Positions 1 to 9,387 of a stretch of DNA of 35,496 nt are shown piece after piece. The stretch lies in IMG/VR virus record IMGVR_UViG_3300048580_000358, positions 1 through 35,496 of that record; one strand, written 5' to 3'. Position 1 is the first letter of the stretch. Each line of letters begins with the position of its first letter. The position numbers were made by a program, and so were the translations under genes. This DNA comes from a virus. Below the pieces are notes generated by a model. It searched no databases, was not told the DNA's origin, and saw nothing but the letters and a program-made list of their open reading frames with translations.

Positions 1-784
1 CGCACTCAAACAACCACTTGAATTGCCGGTAGCTGTAGGGGTAGACCCGATGGCCCGGCACGGCCGGCAGGTGGGGCAGCAGGGCATCAAGGGCCCGGCG
101 GGTGAGCGGCACGCTGCGGGCGCGGTTGGCCTTGGTCTCCCAGAAGGTGACGCGGGCCCGATCCACATCCACATCAGCCCCACGCAGCCGCTCGGCTTCG
201 CCCCACCTGCAGCAGGTCTCGAGAAGGAACACAAAAAGGTCGGCCGCGGCGGGTTGGCCTGCGGCATGGAACCGATCGCAGAACGCTGCGATCTCAGCAT
301 CCGAGAAGATGCGGTCCTTGGTGTTGCGGTTGGTCAGCTGCCGGGGCAGCGGCGGGATGGCTGCCAGGTGCCCATGCAGCACGGCATCGCTGAACATGGC
401 CCGCAGGCAGGACACCTTGGCGTTGACGGTGCCGGGGCGGTTGCCGCCACGGAGCAGCAGCTGCCGCCACTCCTCTACGGCCGGGGCGGTGATGCCCCCC
501 AGCTGGGTGAGCGGGCCGAAGTGATCCACGGCGGCCTGGCTGTAGATCGCAGCGGTCCGCTCAAAGGCCTTGCCGGCCCAGCGGATGCGCAGCGAGAGGG
601 CCCGGGCGTCGGTAATGGTGATGCCCTGGGGTTCACCCGTGCCACGGGCTACCAGGAGCTCCAGCAGCTGGCGCTTGGCCTCGATGGCCTCGGTCTTGGT
701 CTTGCGCTTGGCAGTGCGGCGGGTGCCGCCGATGGTGACATCGGCAATCCAGCCGTCCGCCGTGCGGCGAACTGATCCGGTCAT
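1..784 (-). CDS. int: Tyrosine recombinase (phage integrase), 3' end cut by the window edge
   Basis: Reading leftward from ATG at 784, 261 codons are open to the edge. The N-terminus (GSVRRTADGWIADVTIGGTRR) looks like the short beta-strand arm domain of phage integrases and is followed by a helical core-binding region (about 60-150). The catalytic domain starts near residue 155: Arg193 in ETCCRWGEAERL fits catalytic Arg I, and Lys218 in WETKANRARSVPL fits the beta-hairpin lysine. The HxxR box and the tyrosine would lie beyond the edge. The start is supported by AAAGGA 12 nt upstream, after a pure (ACC)10 tract. It is the last gene of the leftward operon, so the phage is probably temperate. 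Family call is secure; catalytic completeness cannot be judged here. Confidence 0.5.
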   Translation of the reverse strand, partial: MTGSVRRTADGWIADVTIGGTRRTAKRKTKTEAIEAKRQLLELLVARGTGEPQGITITDARALSLRIRWAGKAFERTAAIYSQAAVDHFGPLTQLGGITAPAVEEWRQLLLRGGNRPGTVNAKVSCLRAMFSDAVLHGHLAAIPPLPRQLTNRNTKDRIFSDAEIAAFCDRFHAAGQPAAADLFVFLLETCCRWGEAERLRGADVDVDRARVTFWETKANRARSVPLTRRALDALLPHLPAVPGHRVYPYSYRQFKWLFEC

Positions 785-830: not shown

Positions 831-1148
831 TCAGATCCGCTGCAGCTGCTGGAGCAGCAGCCGCCCCTTAGGGCTCAAGCGGACCAGGAAGCGGCGCCCC
901 TCCTCGGGGTCGCGTTCCACGGTGAGCAGCCGATAGCCGCGGTCGCCGTGGCGGTTGCGATCGCTGAGGGCGGCGACCGATCGGGAGACGCTGGAGTTGG
1001 TCAGGTTTAGGGCCTGCTCCAGGTGCTCGAACGTGGCCGGCTCGTTCAGGGCAACCTCAAGAAACAGCCGTGCATGGTGCAGCGGAAAACGGGTGGGGTC
1101 CTGGGTGGCAAAAGTGCCTAAAGCCAGGGCCAGTGAAGCGAGATCCAT
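831..1148 (-). CDS. Winged-helix (MarR-like) transcriptional regulator
   Basis: A 105-residue protein. Its middle (NEPATFEHLEQALNLTNSSV followed by SRSVAAL) reads as helix-turn-helix with a recognition helix, and RFLVRLSPKGRLLL as the wing and final helix of a MarR-type winged helix. I chose ATG 1148, preceded by CCTAGGACC, over the GTG at 1163, because the ATG has an AGG Shine-Dalgarno at good spacing. A 13-bp palindrome (1154-1166) sits directly upstream of the start and is a natural autoregulatory operator. It is similar in layout to the gene at 1291-1626, from which it is separated by 142 bp, and it lies just before the integrase. A repressor or integrase-control role is inference. Possible alternative: an excisionase-like DNA-binding protein. 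Confidence 0.5.
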   Translation of the reverse strand: MDLASLALALGTFATQDPTRFPLHHARLFLEVALNEPATFEHLEQALNLTNSSVSRSVAALSDRNRHGDRGYRLLTVERDPEEGRRFLVRLSPKGRLLLQQLQRI

Positions 1149-1153
1149 GGTCC

Positions 1154-1166
1154 TAGGTGACACCTA
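1154..1166. promoter_or_regulatory. Palindromic operator candidate TAGGTG-A-CACCTA
   Basis: A perfect 6+1+6 bp palindrome ends five bases before the ATG of the regulator gene at 1148 and overlaps its Shine-Dalgarno region. Binding here would block both transcription and translation start. A partial copy (TAGG-N5-CCTA within TAGGCATCACCTA) is at 5740-5752, upstream of the rightward operon, which would suit one repressor acting at both control points. This is inference from symmetry only. Confidence 0.5.
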
Positions 1167-1290: not shown

Positions 1291-1626
1291 TCATCCTTCA
1301 GCTAGTCCAAATGTACTAGCAATCAGTTCTCTCCCGTCTGGAGTGAGTTCCAGCTGGAAGCCTGGCCGGTCCGGGTGTTTCGACCGCTGCACCAGCCCCA
1401 GCCGGGACCGGGCCCGCCCCTTCCCGATCCGGCCGCGACCGATCAAGTGAGCGACGTTCCGGTTAGCGGTTTGGCGCACGACGCCCATCCGCCGGCATAG
1501 CTCGGCGCTGCAGTCTGCACCTGTTGCGATGTGCAAAAGCGTCTCAACTGCACTGGCACTGATGGCCTGGTGGTGGTGTCTGATGCCGCGCAGCATGGCT
1601 GCCACGTCTGCAGGGGTGGCGCTCAT
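1291..1626 (-). CDS. Winged-helix DNA-binding protein (MarR-like)
   Basis: A 111-residue basic protein. Residues about 28-62 (ETLLHIATGADCSAELCRRM followed by GVVRQTANRNVAHL) form a helix-turn-helix with recognition helix, and FQLELTPDGRELIAS is the C-terminal wing strand and helix, the same arrangement as in the regulator at 831-1148. It starts at ATG 1626 with a 4-nt ATGA overlap with the upstream small membrane protein, so it is translated within the operon. The 3' end can form a GCTAGT/ACTAGC hairpin (1301-1320) inside the coding sequence. It may be the second member of a repressor/antirepressor pair; that is inference. Confidence 0.5.
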   Translation of the reverse strand: MSATPADVAAMLRGIRHHHQAISASAVETLLHIATGADCSAELCRRMGVVRQTANRNVAHLIGRGRIGKGRARSRLGLVQRSKHPDRPGFQLELTPDGRELIASTFGLAEG

Positions 1627-2026: not shown

Positions 2027-2638
2027 TCAGGCGGCACGGCAGAGGCCAAGCAGCTTGTCGGCGGTGATCGAGCGCTCCTCGTTGAGCTCGAACCACTGGC
2101 GGCCGATGCGGACAAACCAGGTCACCAGGTCGCCGGTGAGCGGCTCGCCCACGGCGAACAGCTCGAAGGTGCCGTGGTTCGCCCATCTGTAGGGCGGCAA
2201 GCAGTCGAGCATCTCGCCTGCTCGCTCGCTGGTGATCGGCTGCGGCCCCTTGCAGTAGCGCTGCCGGTCGGCCTCGAGCTGCCGGCGCTCTGCCTCGTCC
2301 ATGCTCAGCCGTTCCAGCTGCGCACCTTCCCGCGTGTTGAGCTCGTCGTGACTCAGGCCGGACCACAGGCCCAGGCCGGTGATCGGGTGCACGGCGTCGG
2401 TCGTTTTGCCGGTGGCCGGGTTGAAAAAGGCCTCCTTGATGTCAGTCAGGGAAATGGCCATGGTGTTCTCCTTGGTGGTGGTGGTGGTGTGGTTGTTGAA
2501 CAGCGGACCCAGGGCGCCACCATCGAGGGCCAGCCAGCCCTGAACAGGGCCGGCCAGCTGCTGGGGTGTGGGGCTGTAGTCGCTGGGCTTGGAGCCCGGC
2601 AGGGGCAAGGCCTCCTGCCGGTAGCGGTGGCGCTTCAT
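2027..2638 (-). CDS. DUF1419-like protein fused to a repeated N-terminal module
   Basis: The ORF runs 203 codons from ATG 2638, which overlaps the stop of the ArdC-like gene (ATGA). Residues 1-54 (starting MKRHRYRQEALPLPG and ending ALGPLFNNHTTTTT) are a near copy of the stand-alone protein at 4121-4303. An ACC-encoded Thr run then leads into a second, internal start: ATG 2461 with AAGGAG upstream gives MAISLTDIKEAFF and a 144-residue product. Its C-terminal half (ITSERAGEMLDCLPP, GEPLTGDLVTWFVRIG, WFELNE) resembles DUF1419. It may therefore be made as a fusion, as the short form, or as both. Function unknown; this family sits in mobile-element accessory operons. Confidence 0.5.
   Translation of the reverse strand: MKRHRYRQEALPLPGSKPSDYSPTPQQLAGPVQGWLALDGGALGPLFNNHTTTTTKENTMAISLTDIKEAFFNPATGKTTDAVHPITGLGLWSGLSHDELNTREGAQLERLSMDEAERRQLEADRQRYCKGPQPITSERAGEMLDCLPPYRWANHGTFELFAVGEPLTGDLVTWFVRIGRQWFELNEERSITADKLLGLCRAA
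2474..2488 (-). repeat. (ACC)5 tract at the internal start of the DUF1419-like gene
   Basis: Five ACC codons encode the Thr run of the fusion protein and lie just upstream of AAGGAGAACACC and ATG 2461. Length change in whole units would keep the fusion in frame while altering the spacing to the internal start. Confidence 0.5.
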
Positions 2639-3582
2639 GCCCCCTCCTCGATCGCCTCCGGGGCGATCAGGTCGGCCGCCTTCTTGGCAGCGCCCAGGGC
2701 CTTGAGCACGGCTCGCGGGTCCTCGCGCAGGATCTGACACCAGTCGCCCAGGTAGTCGGCGTGATCCTTGAGCTCTGAGCCGATCTGCAGCCGGCGGCAG
2801 AGGATCGCGCTGCCCATCTCGGCGATGAGCTCCTCCCGGGCGTAGGAGGGTGTGCCGAACTGGCCGGATAGGTTGCGGGCCAGCCGGTCCTTATGGCCGG
2901 TGCTGTGGATCGCTTCATGGGCCCAGGTGGCGGCGAAGTGCTCGCGGCTGTCGAACGCTCGCGGCTCGGGCAGGGAGATCAGATCCAGGGCCGGGCTGTA
3001 GCAAGCCAGGGCGCCCCCGGTGCGGGCCTCCACGGGCCAGGCCTGCAACACGTCCTCGGCGTGGGCCAGGCGTTCCGGCTCGGGCCGGCTCTCAATGTTG
3101 CCGGTCGCCTCGTCGATGCGGCGGGCCAGGGCGGCGGCGCTGTCCTCGTCAACGCCCACCAGGTCGGCGGCATTGAACACGGGCACCAGCTTGTAGACGG
3201 TGAAGCTGCGGGCCTTGCTGCTGATCTCGCCCGGCTGGGCGTTCTCGTCCTCGATGGTGACGGGCCGCGGCTGAGCGATGCGGGCGGCCTTGCTGCCCTT
3301 GGCTGGCATCCAGCCGTTGGCCTTGGCCTGGCCGGCACCCATCCACAGCGGCAGGGTGTTACCCCGGCTCAGGTTGCCGGCCTCCAGCAACAGGGGATTG
3401 CCCCCGCGGTACTGGTGGCCGGTCAGCAGGTTGCGGTGTTCGCCGTTGTGCCCAACCCAGGGCCGGCGCCATGGGTTGATGCCCTGCTCTATCAGGGCGA
3501 TCAGATCGGCGGCCAGCTTCTCCTCTGGGGTGGGCCCGTCGTACTTGCGGGCCTTGGGTTTGGTCTTGGTTGTGCCTGGCAT
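2635..3582 (-). CDS. ArdC-like antirestriction protein with zincin protease motif
   Basis: A 315-residue protein with the ArdC/TraC1 layout: an N-terminal ssDNA-binding domain (about 18-140, with KLAADLIALIEQGINPWRRP, HRNLLTGHQYRGGNPLLL and FTVYKLVPVFNAADLVG) and a C-terminal metallopeptidase domain carrying the HExxH zinc motif in WAHEAIHSTGHKDRL at about residue 222, plus a downstream helix, YAREELIAEMGSAIL, with the likely third ligand. ArdC proteins protect incoming DNA from host restriction, so a role soon after entry or transfer is expected. Start ATG 3582 lies downstream of a two-hairpin leader; no strong Shine-Dalgarno is seen. The stop overlaps the next ATG by 4 nt. Family call is strong; the substrate is unknown. 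Confidence 0.5.
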   Translation of the reverse strand: MPGTTKTKPKARKYDGPTPEEKLAADLIALIEQGINPWRRPWVGHNGEHRNLLTGHQYRGGNPLLLEAGNLSRGNTLPLWMGAGQAKANGWMPAKGSKAARIAQPRPVTIEDENAQPGEISSKARSFTVYKLVPVFNAADLVGVDEDSAAALARRIDEATGNIESRPEPERLAHAEDVLQAWPVEARTGGALACYSPALDLISLPEPRAFDSREHFAATWAHEAIHSTGHKDRLARNLSGQFGTPSYAREELIAEMGSAILCRRLQIGSELKDHADYLGDWCQILREDPRAVLKALGAAKKAADLIAPEAIEEGA

Positions 3583-4556: not shown

Positions 4557-4694
4557 TCAGTGGCTGGCGTGCTGCCAGTGGTGCGGCGTTGCTGGTCGGG
4601 TCACCCCGGGCAGCTCTGGCACTGGTGGCACCAGGGCGGCGGCTGCCATGCCCAGCGCCGCCAGCACCAGGGCCGCGGCAGTCGTGCGGGTCAT
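4557..4694 (-). CDS. Small secreted or membrane peptide (45 aa)
   Basis: Starts MTRTTAAALVLAALGMAAAA, a signal-peptide or single-span membrane helix, followed by a proline-rich tail (PPVPELPGVTRP). The ATG at 4694 overlaps the upstream stop (ATGA); a further in-frame ATG at 4706 would add four residues. No family recognised. Its stop abuts leader element copy 1. Confidence 0.5.
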   Translation of the reverse strand: MTRTTAAALVLAALGMAAAALVPPVPELPGVTRPATPHHWQHASH

Positions 4695-4945
4695 CGTTGC
4701 CCCCATGAGCCGTAGCCGGCCCAGTTCAGGAGCACCACTCCCACAGCTGCAGAGCTGACTAGGTGCGTGTGCATCGCCAGCAGCTGGGCCGCCTCTGTCG
4801 GCCGCGCCAGCCAGTAGCGCCCAACTGCGGCGGCAATGCACGGGTGCGCACGCCCCGCCACAGCTGCAGCGGACAGGCAGAACGCCAGCCGTTGCTCAAG
4901 GTCGCCAGCGCCCAGGGCGGGCGCCGGCGCGGTCGTCGTGGTCAT
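4691..4945 (-). CDS. First gene of the leftward operon, Ala-rich small protein (84 aa)
   Basis: Starts MTTTTAPAPALGAGDLEQRL and is alanine-rich and helical, with a weakly hydrophobic C-terminal segment (HLVSSAAVGVVLLNWAGYG). In-frame starts at 4993 or 4978 would add 16 or 11 residues and would translate through the (ACC)4 tract. I prefer 4945 because the hairpin at 4972-4987 and the ACC tract then form its leader, as in the other leader copies. It is the first gene after the control region. Function unknown. Confidence 0.5.
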   Translation of the reverse strand: MTTTTAPAPALGAGDLEQRLAFCLSAAAVAGRAHPCIAAAVGRYWLARPTEAAQLLAMHTHLVSSAAVGVVLLNWAGYGSWGQR

Positions 4946-4960
4946 CGGTTGTCCAGGTTC

Positions 4961-4987
4961 GGTGGTGGTGGTCTGCATTGCTGCAGA
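4961..4987 (-). promoter_or_regulatory. Hairpin plus (ACC)4 leader at the head of the leftward operon
   Basis: On the coding strand TCTGCA-GCAA-TGCAGA (4987-4972) is a perfect 6-bp stem closed by a GNRA-type tetraloop, followed directly by (ACC)4 (4972-4961) and the start at 4945. It has the hairpin-then-ACC order of the two-hairpin leaders but lacks the first stem. Confidence 0.5.
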
Positions 4988-5048
4988 TGTCACCAGTGTG
5001 GGCCCTGTGGTGCGTGGTTGTGTTGGGTGTGAGGGCGGGGCGTGCCTA

Positions 5049-5066
5049 CCTGTAACAATTCGTAAC
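5049..5066 (-). promoter_or_regulatory. HLR1-like direct repeat (possible RpaB site)
   Basis: The minus strand reads GTTACGAA-TT-GTTACAGG. The HLR1 element bound by the cyanobacterial response regulator RpaB is known as two direct (G/T)TTACA(T/A)(T/A) units separated by two bases; this site matches 13 of the 16 defined positions. It lies about 105 bp upstream of the first leftward start codon. Host-light control of the lysogeny operon would follow if RpaB binds, but it could equally be a site for a phage protein that uses direct repeats. Confidence 0.5.
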
Positions 5067-5198
5067 AGTCAGTCACTCCTATGGGCAGGGCAGGCCAGCG
5101 GGCCCGCTCCAGTTGCCCCAGTCGCCCGCCCTCACCCCACCAGCCCAGCGCAGCGGATCACGCATCCGCAGCAGTGGCCCGCCAGCACTGGCCGGGCA

Positions 5199-5280
5199 GG
5201 CCCCAGGGTGCGCAGCGGCTGCACCAGGGGCAGGCAGGCGGCACCAGGGCGGCCAGCGGCAGCCCCAGGGAGCAGAGCGA
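5199..5280 (+). repeat. Four ~21-bp iteron-like direct repeats
   Basis: The core CCAGGG recurs at 5203, 5224, 5244 and 5265, that is at steps of 21, 20 and 21 bp, two helical turns. The fuller shared pattern is GC(A/C)CCAGGG followed by a GC-rich stretch and, in three of four units, AGCG. A 6-bp GC hairpin (5281-5295) follows directly. This geometry is typical of iterons or multi-site operators; the neighbouring RepL-like gene makes a replication origin possible. Confidence 0.5.
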
Positions 5281-5649
5281 CCCCCCATAGGGGGGAAGCG
5301 GCTGCGCCTCGCGTGGGGGACACCACCAGATCACGCGACCCCAAAACGGGACCTCAGCGGATGACGCGGGATCTGCAGGGACCAGCCCGGGTGTGTGGGG
5401 TGTGATCTGCAGGGGTGCAGGGAGGTGCGGCCACCCCACCGGAGGGCGGGCGTGGGTAGGGAGGGAGTTGTGGTCGTGGCAGGGTGGTAGCCCGGCTGGA
5501 GGTGGGGTGGGGAGGCAACGTGGTGGCAGTGGTCCCCTGTCCTTCTTTCCCCCCTGGCCGTGGGACTGCTTTGGATCTCCAGTAAGAGATCAGAGTGCGT
5601 TTCGGGTGGGCCTGTGGGGGATTGGGCGGCAAACGTGCTAGATACAGAC

Positions 5650-5682
5650 TGCCTTGTTTTTGGCAAGGGTGAATCCCTTGGC
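5650..5682. promoter_or_regulatory. Overlapping inverted repeats CCTTG/CAAGGG/CCCTTG
   Basis: CCTTG (5652-5656) pairs with CAAGG (5664-5668), and CAAGGG (5664-5669) also pairs with CCCTTG (5675-5680), so the central arm can pair with either side. It lies about 125 bp upstream of the first rightward gene in a lower-GC stretch. An operator set or a switchable RNA leader is possible. Confidence 0.5.
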
Positions 5683-5726
5683 ACCACTGGGCTGAACATT
5701 TGTACCACCTGCCCAATTCTCTTTTC

Positions 5727-5752
5727 CCTAGGGGGCCCCTAGGCATCACCTA
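5727..5752. promoter_or_regulatory. 17-bp palindrome plus partial TAGG..CCTA operator
   Basis: CCTAGGGG-G-CCCCTAGG (5727-5743) is perfectly symmetric. Its right end runs into TAGGCATCACCTA (5740-5752), which matches the outer bases of the palindrome at 1154-1166. It is 50-75 bp upstream of the rightward ATG, a good place for repressor control. There is no T-run beside it, so it is not a typical terminator. Confidence 0.5.
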
Positions 5753-5803
5753 TTCGGCAGGAGTACGCCATCGCAGCTATTCCAATTCTTCTGCCCGCCT
5801 AAA

Positions 5804-6199
5804 ATGAGACCCAGAGAGGATGGTTCCGAGAACTTCGTCATGCTGTTCACCGACGAGCTGGCTTCCTGTGCCATCGGTGCCATGGCCGACAAGCGCCTGC
5901 TGCCCCGCGACCTGGCTGTCCTGACTGGCCTGATCGCCAACGTCAACTGGCGCAGCGGTCGGGTCAACGTGACCCAGCGGGCCCTGGCCCAGCAGATGAA
6001 CATCCTTGAGTCGAACTGCTGCACCTCCATCAAGCGCCTGCGGCAGGAGAAGCTGATCGCTCGCGCTGTGGACAAGACCTCCGGCCACACCTACTTCCTG
6101 ATCAACCCCCGGCTGGCATCCGTGGGCAGCACGCAACGCCGCGGCCACCTGTTCCAGCAGTTCGATGAGGCCATAGCGATCCCCAAGGAGCCGGAGTAA
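5804..6199 (+). CDS. RepL-like winged-helix replication/regulatory protein
   Basis: A 131-residue protein, the first rightward gene. Residues about 35-100 form a winged helix: RDLAVLTGLIANVNWRSG, then RVNVTQRALAQQMNILESNC as helix-turn-helix, then IKRLRQEKLIARAVDKTSG, and a wing ending in YFLINPRLASVGSTQRRGHL. The final INPxLA-x-GS-xxRR block is what I associate with RepL-type plasmid replication initiators (the 'firmicute plasmid replication protein' fold), which also occur in phages. With the iteron-like array upstream, an origin-binding role is plausible. A transcription factor for the rightward operon is the main alternative. No Shine-Dalgarno precedes the ATG. Confidence 0.5.
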   Translation: MRPREDGSENFVMLFTDELASCAIGAMADKRLLPRDLAVLTGLIANVNWRSGRVNVTQRALAQQMNILESNCCTSIKRLRQEKLIARAVDKTSGHTYFLINPRLASVGSTQRRGHLFQQFDEAIAIPKEPE

Positions 6200-7496: not shown

Positions 7497-7627
7497 GGTA
7501 CGCTGTGGCCACCTTCTGGGGTGGTTCCTGGGAGCCCGCCGAATCCGATGCCGCAGCGAAAGCTCGGAGGGCGTTTCGGTGGTGGTGTGAGGGCCCCTCT
7601 GTTTCGGCAGGGGGGCTCTCTGCATGA
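7493..7627 (+). CDS. Overlapping small ORF (44 aa) between methyltransferase and terminase
   Basis: GTG 7493 overlaps the methyltransferase stop (GTGA), and its TGA at 7625-7627 overlaps the terminase start (ATGA). The product begins VRYAVATFWGGSWEPAESD and continues AAAKARRAFRWWCEGPS. Exact 4-nt overlaps at both ends argue for a real, translationally coupled gene. No family is recognised. A small packaging accessory protein is possible from position alone. Confidence 0.5.
   Translation: MRYAVATFWGGSWEPAESDAAAKARRAFRWWCEGPSVSAGGLSA
7592..7617 (+). promoter_or_regulatory. Ten-bp hairpin just upstream of the terminase start
   Basis: GGCCCCTCTG (7592-7601) pairs with CAGGGGGGCT (7608-7617, two G-U pairs) around a TTTCGG loop. 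It ends 6 nt before the terminase ATG and so covers its ribosome-binding region. There is no U-run, so it is not a standard terminator; it could make terminase translation depend on translation of the 44-codon ORF that runs through it. Confidence 0.5.
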
Positions 7628-9387
7628 GCGTCTACCCCATCCCCCCTGAACTGGGCATCGGCCGGTTCGCCTACTTCTTCTGCTACATCCTCCGCGAGCT
7701 GGGCCTGGCGGATGAACCCACCAAGCAGCAGCTGCGCATCTGCGACTGGGATGAGGTGGGCCCCAACCGCACGGTGACGGTGGGCTTTCGTGGCATCGCC
7801 AAATCCACCATCAGCGGTGCCCGGGCATTGCACCGCCTGCGGATCGACCCGGAAGGGGAGAAGATCCTGATTCCTGGCGCGACCGAAACGAAGGCTGAGG
7901 AGATCACCACCTTCATGGCCCGGTGCATCCGGGAGATTGACCTGCTGCAGTGCCTCCAGCCCAGGGAGAACCAGCGGCAGTCCGTCCTGGCGTTCGACGT
8001 GGGCCCAGCGATCATCGGCGGCGACGGTGCGCCATCGGTGCGGGCGTGCGGAATCCTCAGCCCCTCGCTGACCGGCAAGCGGGCCACGATGATCATCCCC
8101 GACGACATCGAGACCCTCACCAACTCGATCACCCCGCTGAAGCAGGAGCGGCTGTGGGCGGCCACCACTGAGTTCGAGTCGATCCTGTTGCCGGATGCGG
8201 GCCAGCCGCTGCCCCGGCAGATCAGCTTTCGCGGCACGCCGCACCTGGAAACCTCCATGTACTGGCGACTGGTGCGCGAGCGCGGGTACAAGATGCGGAT
8301 GTGGCCGGCCCGCTACCCCAAGCCGGACACCTTCGATGTCTACGACGGCTGCCTCGATCCGCTCATGGTGGAGGAGATCGAGGGCAACCCGCAGCTGGTG
8401 GGCGGCCCAACCGATCCAGAACGGTTTGATGACGAGGAGCTGATTCAGCGGGAGACCGGCAGCACCAAGGCCAGCTGGCAGCTGCAGTACATGCTCAACT
8501 GCCGGCTGAGCACCCTGGACAAGTTCCCCATCCGCCTGGGCGACCTGATCGTGATGCCGCTGGATGGCAAGGCGCTGCCGGAGGTGATCAGCTGGGCATC
8601 CGGCGCAGAGCAGCGGATCAACGAGCTGCCTTGCGTGGGGCTGGGGGCTGATCGCTACTACCACCGGCCGATGATGGTGCAGGGCTGGCTGCCCAGGTCG
8701 GAGAAGTGGCGCAGCGTGCTGGCGATCGACCCCTCTGGCCGCGGCAGTGACGAGCTGGCCTGGGCGGTGGTGGCCGAGCTCAGCGGCAACCTGTTCGTGC
8801 TCGAGAGCGGCGGCACCACCCGGGGGTATGAGGACGATGTGCTGGAGCTGCTGGCGAACGTGGCCAAGCGCTGGCAGGTCAATACCGTCATCCCTGAGCC
8901 CAACTTCGGCGATGGCATGTTCAGCAAGATCCTGCAGCCGGTGATGAAGCGCATCTACCCCTGCTCGATCGAGGAGGCCCCGCGGTCAGCTGGGCAGAAG
9001 GAGCGGCGGATCATTGACGTGCTCGCGCCCCTGGTGCAGCAGCACCGGCTGGTGGTCAACAGCGAGCTGATCCAGAAGGACTGGGAAGGCGCCGAGCGTG
9101 ACCCGGACAACGGCCACCCTCGCTCGCTCATGTACCAGATGAGCCGGATCACCACCGACCGAGGCAGCCTGCTGTTCGACGACCGGATCGACGCCCTGGA
9201 GATCGCTGCAGCCCACTTCGTGGAGGCCGCGGCCCAGGACCAGCGGCGGGTGGCCGCACGCCGCCAGGAGGAGCTGGTGGAGGCCTCCCTGGCGGCCTGG
9301 TTCGATGAGACCGGCGCCAAGCTCGATGCGTTGGCCCTGGGGATCGTCCCGAAGGCCAGCGGGGCCGTGGGTGGCGTCAGGCGGTAG
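7624..9387 (+). CDS. terL: Large terminase subunit (T7 gp19-like DNA packaging ATPase/nuclease)
   Basis: A 587-residue protein of normal length for T7-type large terminases. The Walker A box is GFRGIAKST (54-62), Walker B is MIIPDDIE (156-163), and the C-terminal RNase H-like nuclease has Asp369 in VLAIDPSGRGSDE, Asp430 in NFGDGMF and the acidic cluster FDDRIDALE (519-526). It cuts concatemeric DNA and pumps it into proheads through the portal (32894-34531). It lies on the plus strand with the methyltransferase operon, unlike T7, where it follows the structural genes on the same strand. Its 3' end overlaps the opposing small terminase gene by 11 bp. Confidence 0.5.
   Translation: MSVYPIPPELGIGRFAYFFCYILRELGLADEPTKQQLRICDWDEVGPNRTVTVGFRGIAKSTISGARALHRLRIDPEGEKILIPGATETKAEEITTFMARCIREIDLLQCLQPRENQRQSVLAFDVGPAIIGGDGAPSVRACGILSPSLTGKRATMIIPDDIETLTNSITPLKQERLWAATTEFESILLPDAGQPLPRQISFRGTPHLETSMYWRLVRERGYKMRMWPARYPKPDTFDVYDGCLDPLMVEEIEGNPQLVGGPTDPERFDDEELIQRETGSTKASWQLQYMLNCRLSTLDKFPIRLGDLIVMPLDGKALPEVISWASGAEQRINELPCVGLGADRYYHRPMMVQGWLPRSEKWRSVLAIDPSGRGSDELAWAVVAELSGNLFVLESGGTTRGYEDDVLELLANVAKRWQVNTVIPEPNFGDGMFSKILQPVMKRIYPCSIEEAPRSAGQKERRIIDVLAPLVQQHRLVVNSELIQKDWEGAERDPDNGHPRSLMYQMSRITTDRGSLLFDDRIDALEIAAAHFVEAAAQDQRRVAARRQEELVEASLAAWFDETGAKLDALALGIVPKASGAVGGVRR

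Follow-up and report, generated by a model that had tools for sequence, protein, structure and literature searches.

A conserved HLR1-like element in the early-gene control region of a T7-like freshwater cyanophage, a candidate site for host RpaB

We analysed the IMG/VR virus contig IMGVR_UViG_3300048580_000358 over its whole length of 35,496 bases (hereafter, the window). In its early-gene control region lies a short element that we read, with a probability of about one in two, as an HLR1-type site for RpaB of the host of this T7-like phage. RpaB is an OmpR-family response regulator, reported to be strongly conserved across cyanobacteria, and the hli, ftsH and psbA gene classes are its targets in model strains (PMC13421787). 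Judged by its sequence and by alignment, the element is real, conserved and host-like, of the RpaB type. An HLR1/RpaB-type element had been proposed here in an initial annotation of the window; the type of host, the likeness to host sites and the conservation in relatives all favour that proposal, while its minus-strand placement and its prophage and lysogeny part were not supported.

Virus, host and gene map

The window contains genes for terminase (7624–9387, plus strand), nozzle, T7-type tail fibre, portal and capsid, and by this gene content the virus is a T7-like podovirus, very probably one of freshwater Synechococcus/Cyanobium. Among isolates, Synechococcus phage S-SRP02 is closest, its terminase being 61.6% identical to that of the window. 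A relative with an 87% identical terminase and the same site lies on a 5.7-kb contig of genome bin G214, a bin that shares its genus with Cyanobium sp. CH-040. Taken together, the closest isolate and this Cyanobium-genus bin make a freshwater Synechococcus/Cyanobium picocyanobacterium very probably the host, in agreement with the cyanobacterial host on which the initial annotation had made its reading depend. A free phage could have been binned with G214, and the contig is thus not proof of a prophage state.

The same annotation had spoken of a prophage operon and a lysis–lysogeny decision. With regard to a lysogenic control region, an integrase fragment and MarR-like genes are seen, and the record is a T7-like virus contig. 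In published T7-like cyanophages, integration was shown without the formation of stable lysogens (PMC8776855), and this part of the proposal is not supported.

The element is located in the 810-bp intergenic region (4994–5803) between a leftward, early operon and a rightward unit. The features of this part of the window are as follows:

5049–5069, no strand assigned: conserved HLR1-like element of two GTNAC half-sites 10 bp apart, among the two best conserved intergenic stretches
5052–5069, plus strand: preferred HLR1-like reading GTAACAATTCGTAACAGT, pointing rightwards; 13/16 to the consensus, top host-matrix score of the window (20.3)
5049–5066, minus strand: HLR1 reading of the initial annotation, GTTACGAATTGTTACAGG; 13/16 to the consensus, host-matrix score at chance level (11.3)
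4691–4993, minus strand: first ORF of the leftward operon; GTG start at 4993, in-frame ATG at 4978
2635–3582, minus strand: ArdC-type antirestriction protein of the leftward operon (PF08401, PF18818; phrog_7245)
1291–1626, minus strand: MarR-like winged-helix protein of the leftward operon (weak PF12802 match, below cut-off)
831–1163, minus strand: MarR-like winged-helix protein of the leftward operon (53% identity to the S-SRP02 MarR protein)
2–784, minus strand: tyrosine integrase, truncated by the window edge (partial PF00589 match, below cut-off)
5804–6199, plus strand: winged-helix protein whose gene opens the rightward unit (weak RepL/MarR matches)

The first ORF of the leftward operon begins ~55–75 bp from the element, which makes it the nearest gene start. 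Its start region is conserved in relatives, and family searches returned no family match for it. The truncated integrase aligns to the integrase region of S-SRP02. On the other side, the winged-helix protein is 44–100% identical in relatives and is followed by genes for a methyltransferase, terminase and endolysin.

Sequence, scoring and conservation of the element

We compared the element with the HLR1 consensus KTTACAWW-N2-KTTACAWW, which has 16 defined positions (PMC13421787). The motif noticed initially is present: the minus strand of 5066–5049 reads GTTACGAATTGTTACAGG and agrees at 13 positions. The overlapping plus-strand sequence GTAACAATTCGTAACAGT also reaches 13/16, because GTTAC and GTAAC differ in the central base only and GTWAC is almost self-complementary. 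We therefore rejected the direct repeat as a distinguishing feature, and the direct-repeat orientation put forward in support of the motif carries little weight. Matches of at least 13/16 arose in 13.5% of dinucleotide-shuffled windows and, when the 810-bp intergenic region alone was shuffled, in 0.2% of cases. Each of eight host-type genomes held 25–47 matches with up to three mismatches, and these were not commoner than matches to a reversed control pattern; the consensus count alone is therefore weak evidence. What lifts the site above chance, on the sequences compared, is its conservation together with a host-derived matrix.

This matrix was built from 17 Cyanobium sites before hli, ftsH and psbA, with zero phage sequences included. 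We picked the sites from matches and gene neighbourhood, not from experiment, and identified hli and ftsH by inspecting translated N-termini. Cyanobium-type sites of HLR1 form read TTTACAACCTGTTACAAT, TTTACATTGTGTTACGAT, TTTACAGTCTGTTACACT and TTCACATCGCGTTACAAT before hli genes, TTAACATTCCGTTACTTT before a gene with an FtsH-like product and GCAATGTTCTGTTACGTT before psbA. The upstream regions of psaD and psaA, tried as a host yardstick, showed no clear HLR1. The plus-strand reading scores 20.3 and ranks first in the window (next, 11.6), within the range that the host sites before RpaB-type target genes give on leave-one-out (17.2–27.1). In simulated sequence, scores of 10–12 occurred about once per window and none reached 18.

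The minus-strand reading, which had been taken as a direct repeat directed toward the leftward operon, scores only 11.3, and the better-scoring plus strand faces away from that operon. Strand orientation by itself does not rule out control of the leftward operon. The plus-strand site tops the window with every host subset tried; with a matrix from hli sites only, the two strands come closer (16.0 for plus, 13.4 for minus), and for this reason we treat the plus strand as a preference, not as proof. Host hli-type promoters, too, contain half-sites seen in the phages, for example GCAACAAT and GTTGC.

In relatives, where the initial annotation had suggested looking for conservation, the element is found in an unchanged position ahead of the corresponding leftward operon in eight phage contigs (L002, L003, L004, L005, L011, L012, L013 and L190), and a degenerate version stands there in a ninth (L191). 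The plus-strand variants GTAACAATTCGTAACAGT, GTAGCAATTCGTAACAGT, GTAACAATTCGTAACCTA, GTAACAATTCGTTACCTG, GCAACAATTCGTAACAAT and GCAACAAATCGTCACAAA all match the consensus at 12–13 of 16 positions despite their base changes; around the site, which persists with substitutions, the flanking sequence differs among relatives. Averaged over the alignment, the consensus score at the aligned site is 12.7, compared with 4.39 (s.d. 1.43) over all alignment windows. The TT spacer and a flanking CGA are as invariant across relatives as the half-sites, unlike the free N2 spacer of the consensus. When corresponding regions were compared, the site was missing in S-SRP02, in L006 and in two marine fosmid phages; AP013548 and AP013546, both marine relatives, share the gene plan but not the site. 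Outside the lineage, the 19-mer occurs in a single viral contig (L087); the proteins of the window have no homology to this contig, and the match is probably due to chance.

Alternative readings of the element

The main alternative is an operator for a phage repressor, with the winged-helix protein of 5804–6199 or either MarR-like protein in this role. Bound as a dimer to the imperfect palindrome GTNAC-N5-GTNAC, the repressor would then switch the divergent genes. This explanation, which we consider possible but rather unlikely, stays first among the alternatives because the region is flanked by three genes of winged-helix type, a winged-helix gene on one side and two MarR-like genes on the other, and because the arms in L012 (and in L013) form a perfect inverted repeat, GTAAC-N5-GTTAC. 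The invariant centre of the element would suit an operator as well. However, the window, L003, L011 and L191 do not keep the palindrome intact, the window has a single copy of the element whereas phage operators are often multiple, and S-SRP02 encodes winged-helix and MarR homologues yet is without the element.

A core promoter is an unlikely explanation. Here the element would be an extended −10 for host RNA polymerase (TGTAACAAT on the plus strand or TGTTACAGG on the minus strand), and its likeness to HLR1 would arise since host hli and psbA promoters unite both elements. Of the −10-like elements that the window has around the site, TGTAACAAT is the best, and L005, L190 and L012 keep it; Cyanobium psbA promoters carry TGTTACATT with TTCACA upstream. 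Against a promoter, no −35 partner was found at the site, and the hexamer is altered in L003, L011 and L191 though the GTNAC spacing is kept.

Very unlikely, in our view, is a site for another host OmpR-family regulator of the RpaA, SrrA or PhoB type. Tandem half-sites are common to OmpR-family regulators, RpaA and RpaB have target promoters in common (PMC13421787), and genes of other cyanophages are under PhoB control (PMC10976474); the pattern, however, fits host sites at hli, ftsH and psbA, classes that belong to the RpaB targets of model strains, and the Pho consensus TTAA is not present. Chance resemblance with no regulator involved is equally improbable: several relatives are without the site and 13/16 matches are frequent in host genomes and shuffled windows, but chance would account poorly for one conserved place in phages with differing flanks and for the host-matrix score.

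Other identities were rejected. The NtcA box GTAN8TAC does not fit, the window having GTA-N8-TAA and L012 GTA-N9-TAC, and the element departs from the Pho box consensus. As an attachment site, its 22-base conserved core is without an exact match in the genome contigs searched, and the integrase is 4 kb away. A T7-type phage promoter was set aside on the single copy in the window.

Putative RpaB input and a neighbouring box

In model cyanobacteria, HLR1 is bound in low light by phosphorylated RpaB, which loses its phosphate when the light is high; the effect of binding is activation where HLR1 lies upstream of the promoter and repression where HLR1 lies over the transcription start (PMC13421787). 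If the element is such a site, host RpaB would bind the incoming phage DNA upon infection and tune the nearest genes at the level of transcription; these are most likely the genes of the leftward early operon, and early expression would then depend on the light and redox state of the host. The control may be activation or repression, and may act on the leftward or the rightward transcript, with the better-scoring strand facing right. No sigma-70 consensus promoter was found in 4600–5850, and we saw no convincing promoter at a fixed distance from the element, the best −10-like candidates disagreeing between relatives. One such candidate, a hexamer 56 bp downstream, was rejected; it is passable in the window, L003, L005, L012 and L191 and fails in L190 and L011.

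Cyanophage production is light-dependent. To our knowledge, the links known between light and phage depend on photosynthesis genes that the phages carry, and the link known to involve a host regulator concerns phosphate (PhoB). An RpaB site would, if true, connect the host's light and redox sensor directly with the onset of a T7-like infection. Our searches of an open-access library turned up no phage for which RpaB or HLR1 had been described.

The element resembles the HLR1/RpaB sites of cyanobacterial hli, psbA, ftsH and psa genes in its two half-sites, its 10-bp step, its 13/16 match and a matrix score in the Cyanobium range. It differs from them in being located in a phage and in the second half-site of the preferred strand (GTAAC, where host sites nearly always have GTTAC). 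A similar arrangement is found in the host PhoB boxes of cyanomyoviruses (P-SSM2 pstS; S-PM2 genes), in that a host two-component response regulator couples phage transcription to physiology. The cyanomyovirus boxes differ in responding to phosphate, not to light and redox state, and in serving individual metabolic genes, not a T7-like early control region. Cyanomyovirus genes are controlled by host PhoB and binding to their boxes has been demonstrated, in a study whose authors caution that box prediction in phages is unreliable without binding assays (PMC10976474); the RpaB site of the window is putative.

S-SRP02 shares the plan of the window, with a divergent early operon that includes MarR and integrase genes opposite a winged-helix gene and terminase; its gene order is MarR, then integrase, then phage RNA polymerase. 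Its intergenic region is without an HLR1-like site but has a Zur/Fur-type box, TGAGAATGATTCCCATTCTTGTTCTCA, at the corresponding place, which the window lacks. The sequence TGAGAATGGTTCCCATTCCTATTCTCA, or a close variant, adjoins the HLR1-like site in L003, L005, L011, L012 and L013. Coordinates of the box in three of these phages are:

L003, 9267–9293: Zur/Fur-type box
L005, 9182–9208: Zur/Fur-type box
S-SRP02 (L001), 8086–8112: Zur/Fur-type box

The box is not found in window 5070–5100, and is lost in the window, L002 and L004. Its pattern is strongly enriched in Cyanobium-type genomes, with 40 matches compared with 3 for a reversed control. Two of the Cyanobium matches that we examined lie before a CobW-type GTPase gene and before znuA, which points to a Zur-type identity for the adjoining box in relatives. 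Both boxes come and go between closely related phages, which looks like a turnover of inputs from host regulators. We propose, tentatively, that this freshwater lineage of T7-like cyanophages may set RpaB and, in relatives, Zur/Fur sites next to each other in the region that controls its early genes; the photosynthetic and metal status of the host would then gate the initial step of infection, and individual sites would be acquired or dropped among closely related phages.

Several other conserved sequences were seen. Four other viral contigs (L091, L094, L095 and L096), for which tblastn gives no relation to the window's proteins, have in common a different conserved sequence around TGAGAATGATTCCCATTCCCCTTCTCA (CCTTTTGCCTTGGCT...CAGTGAGAC). 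In the host, Cyanobium psbA upstream regions (L192–L196 and L203–L205) contain a strongly conserved GCAAYNTTCTGTTACNTT with TTCACA upstream, and the HLR1-like repeat there coincides with the extended −10. Within the window, a short hairpin at 5153–5169, GCGGAT-N5-ATCCGC, is conserved in relatives including S-SRP02 and L006. The best conserved intergenic stretch, 5318–5350, reads TTTTGGGGTCGCGTGATCTGGTGGTGTCCCC on the minus strand, occurs in a single copy and is recognisable in S-SRP02; it is perhaps related to packaging or a genome end. Finally, CCACCACCACC / ATGACCAC leaders are repeated before several leftward genes (window ~820, 2480, 3600, 4120, 4490 and 4945), and are perhaps a common translation-initiation leader.
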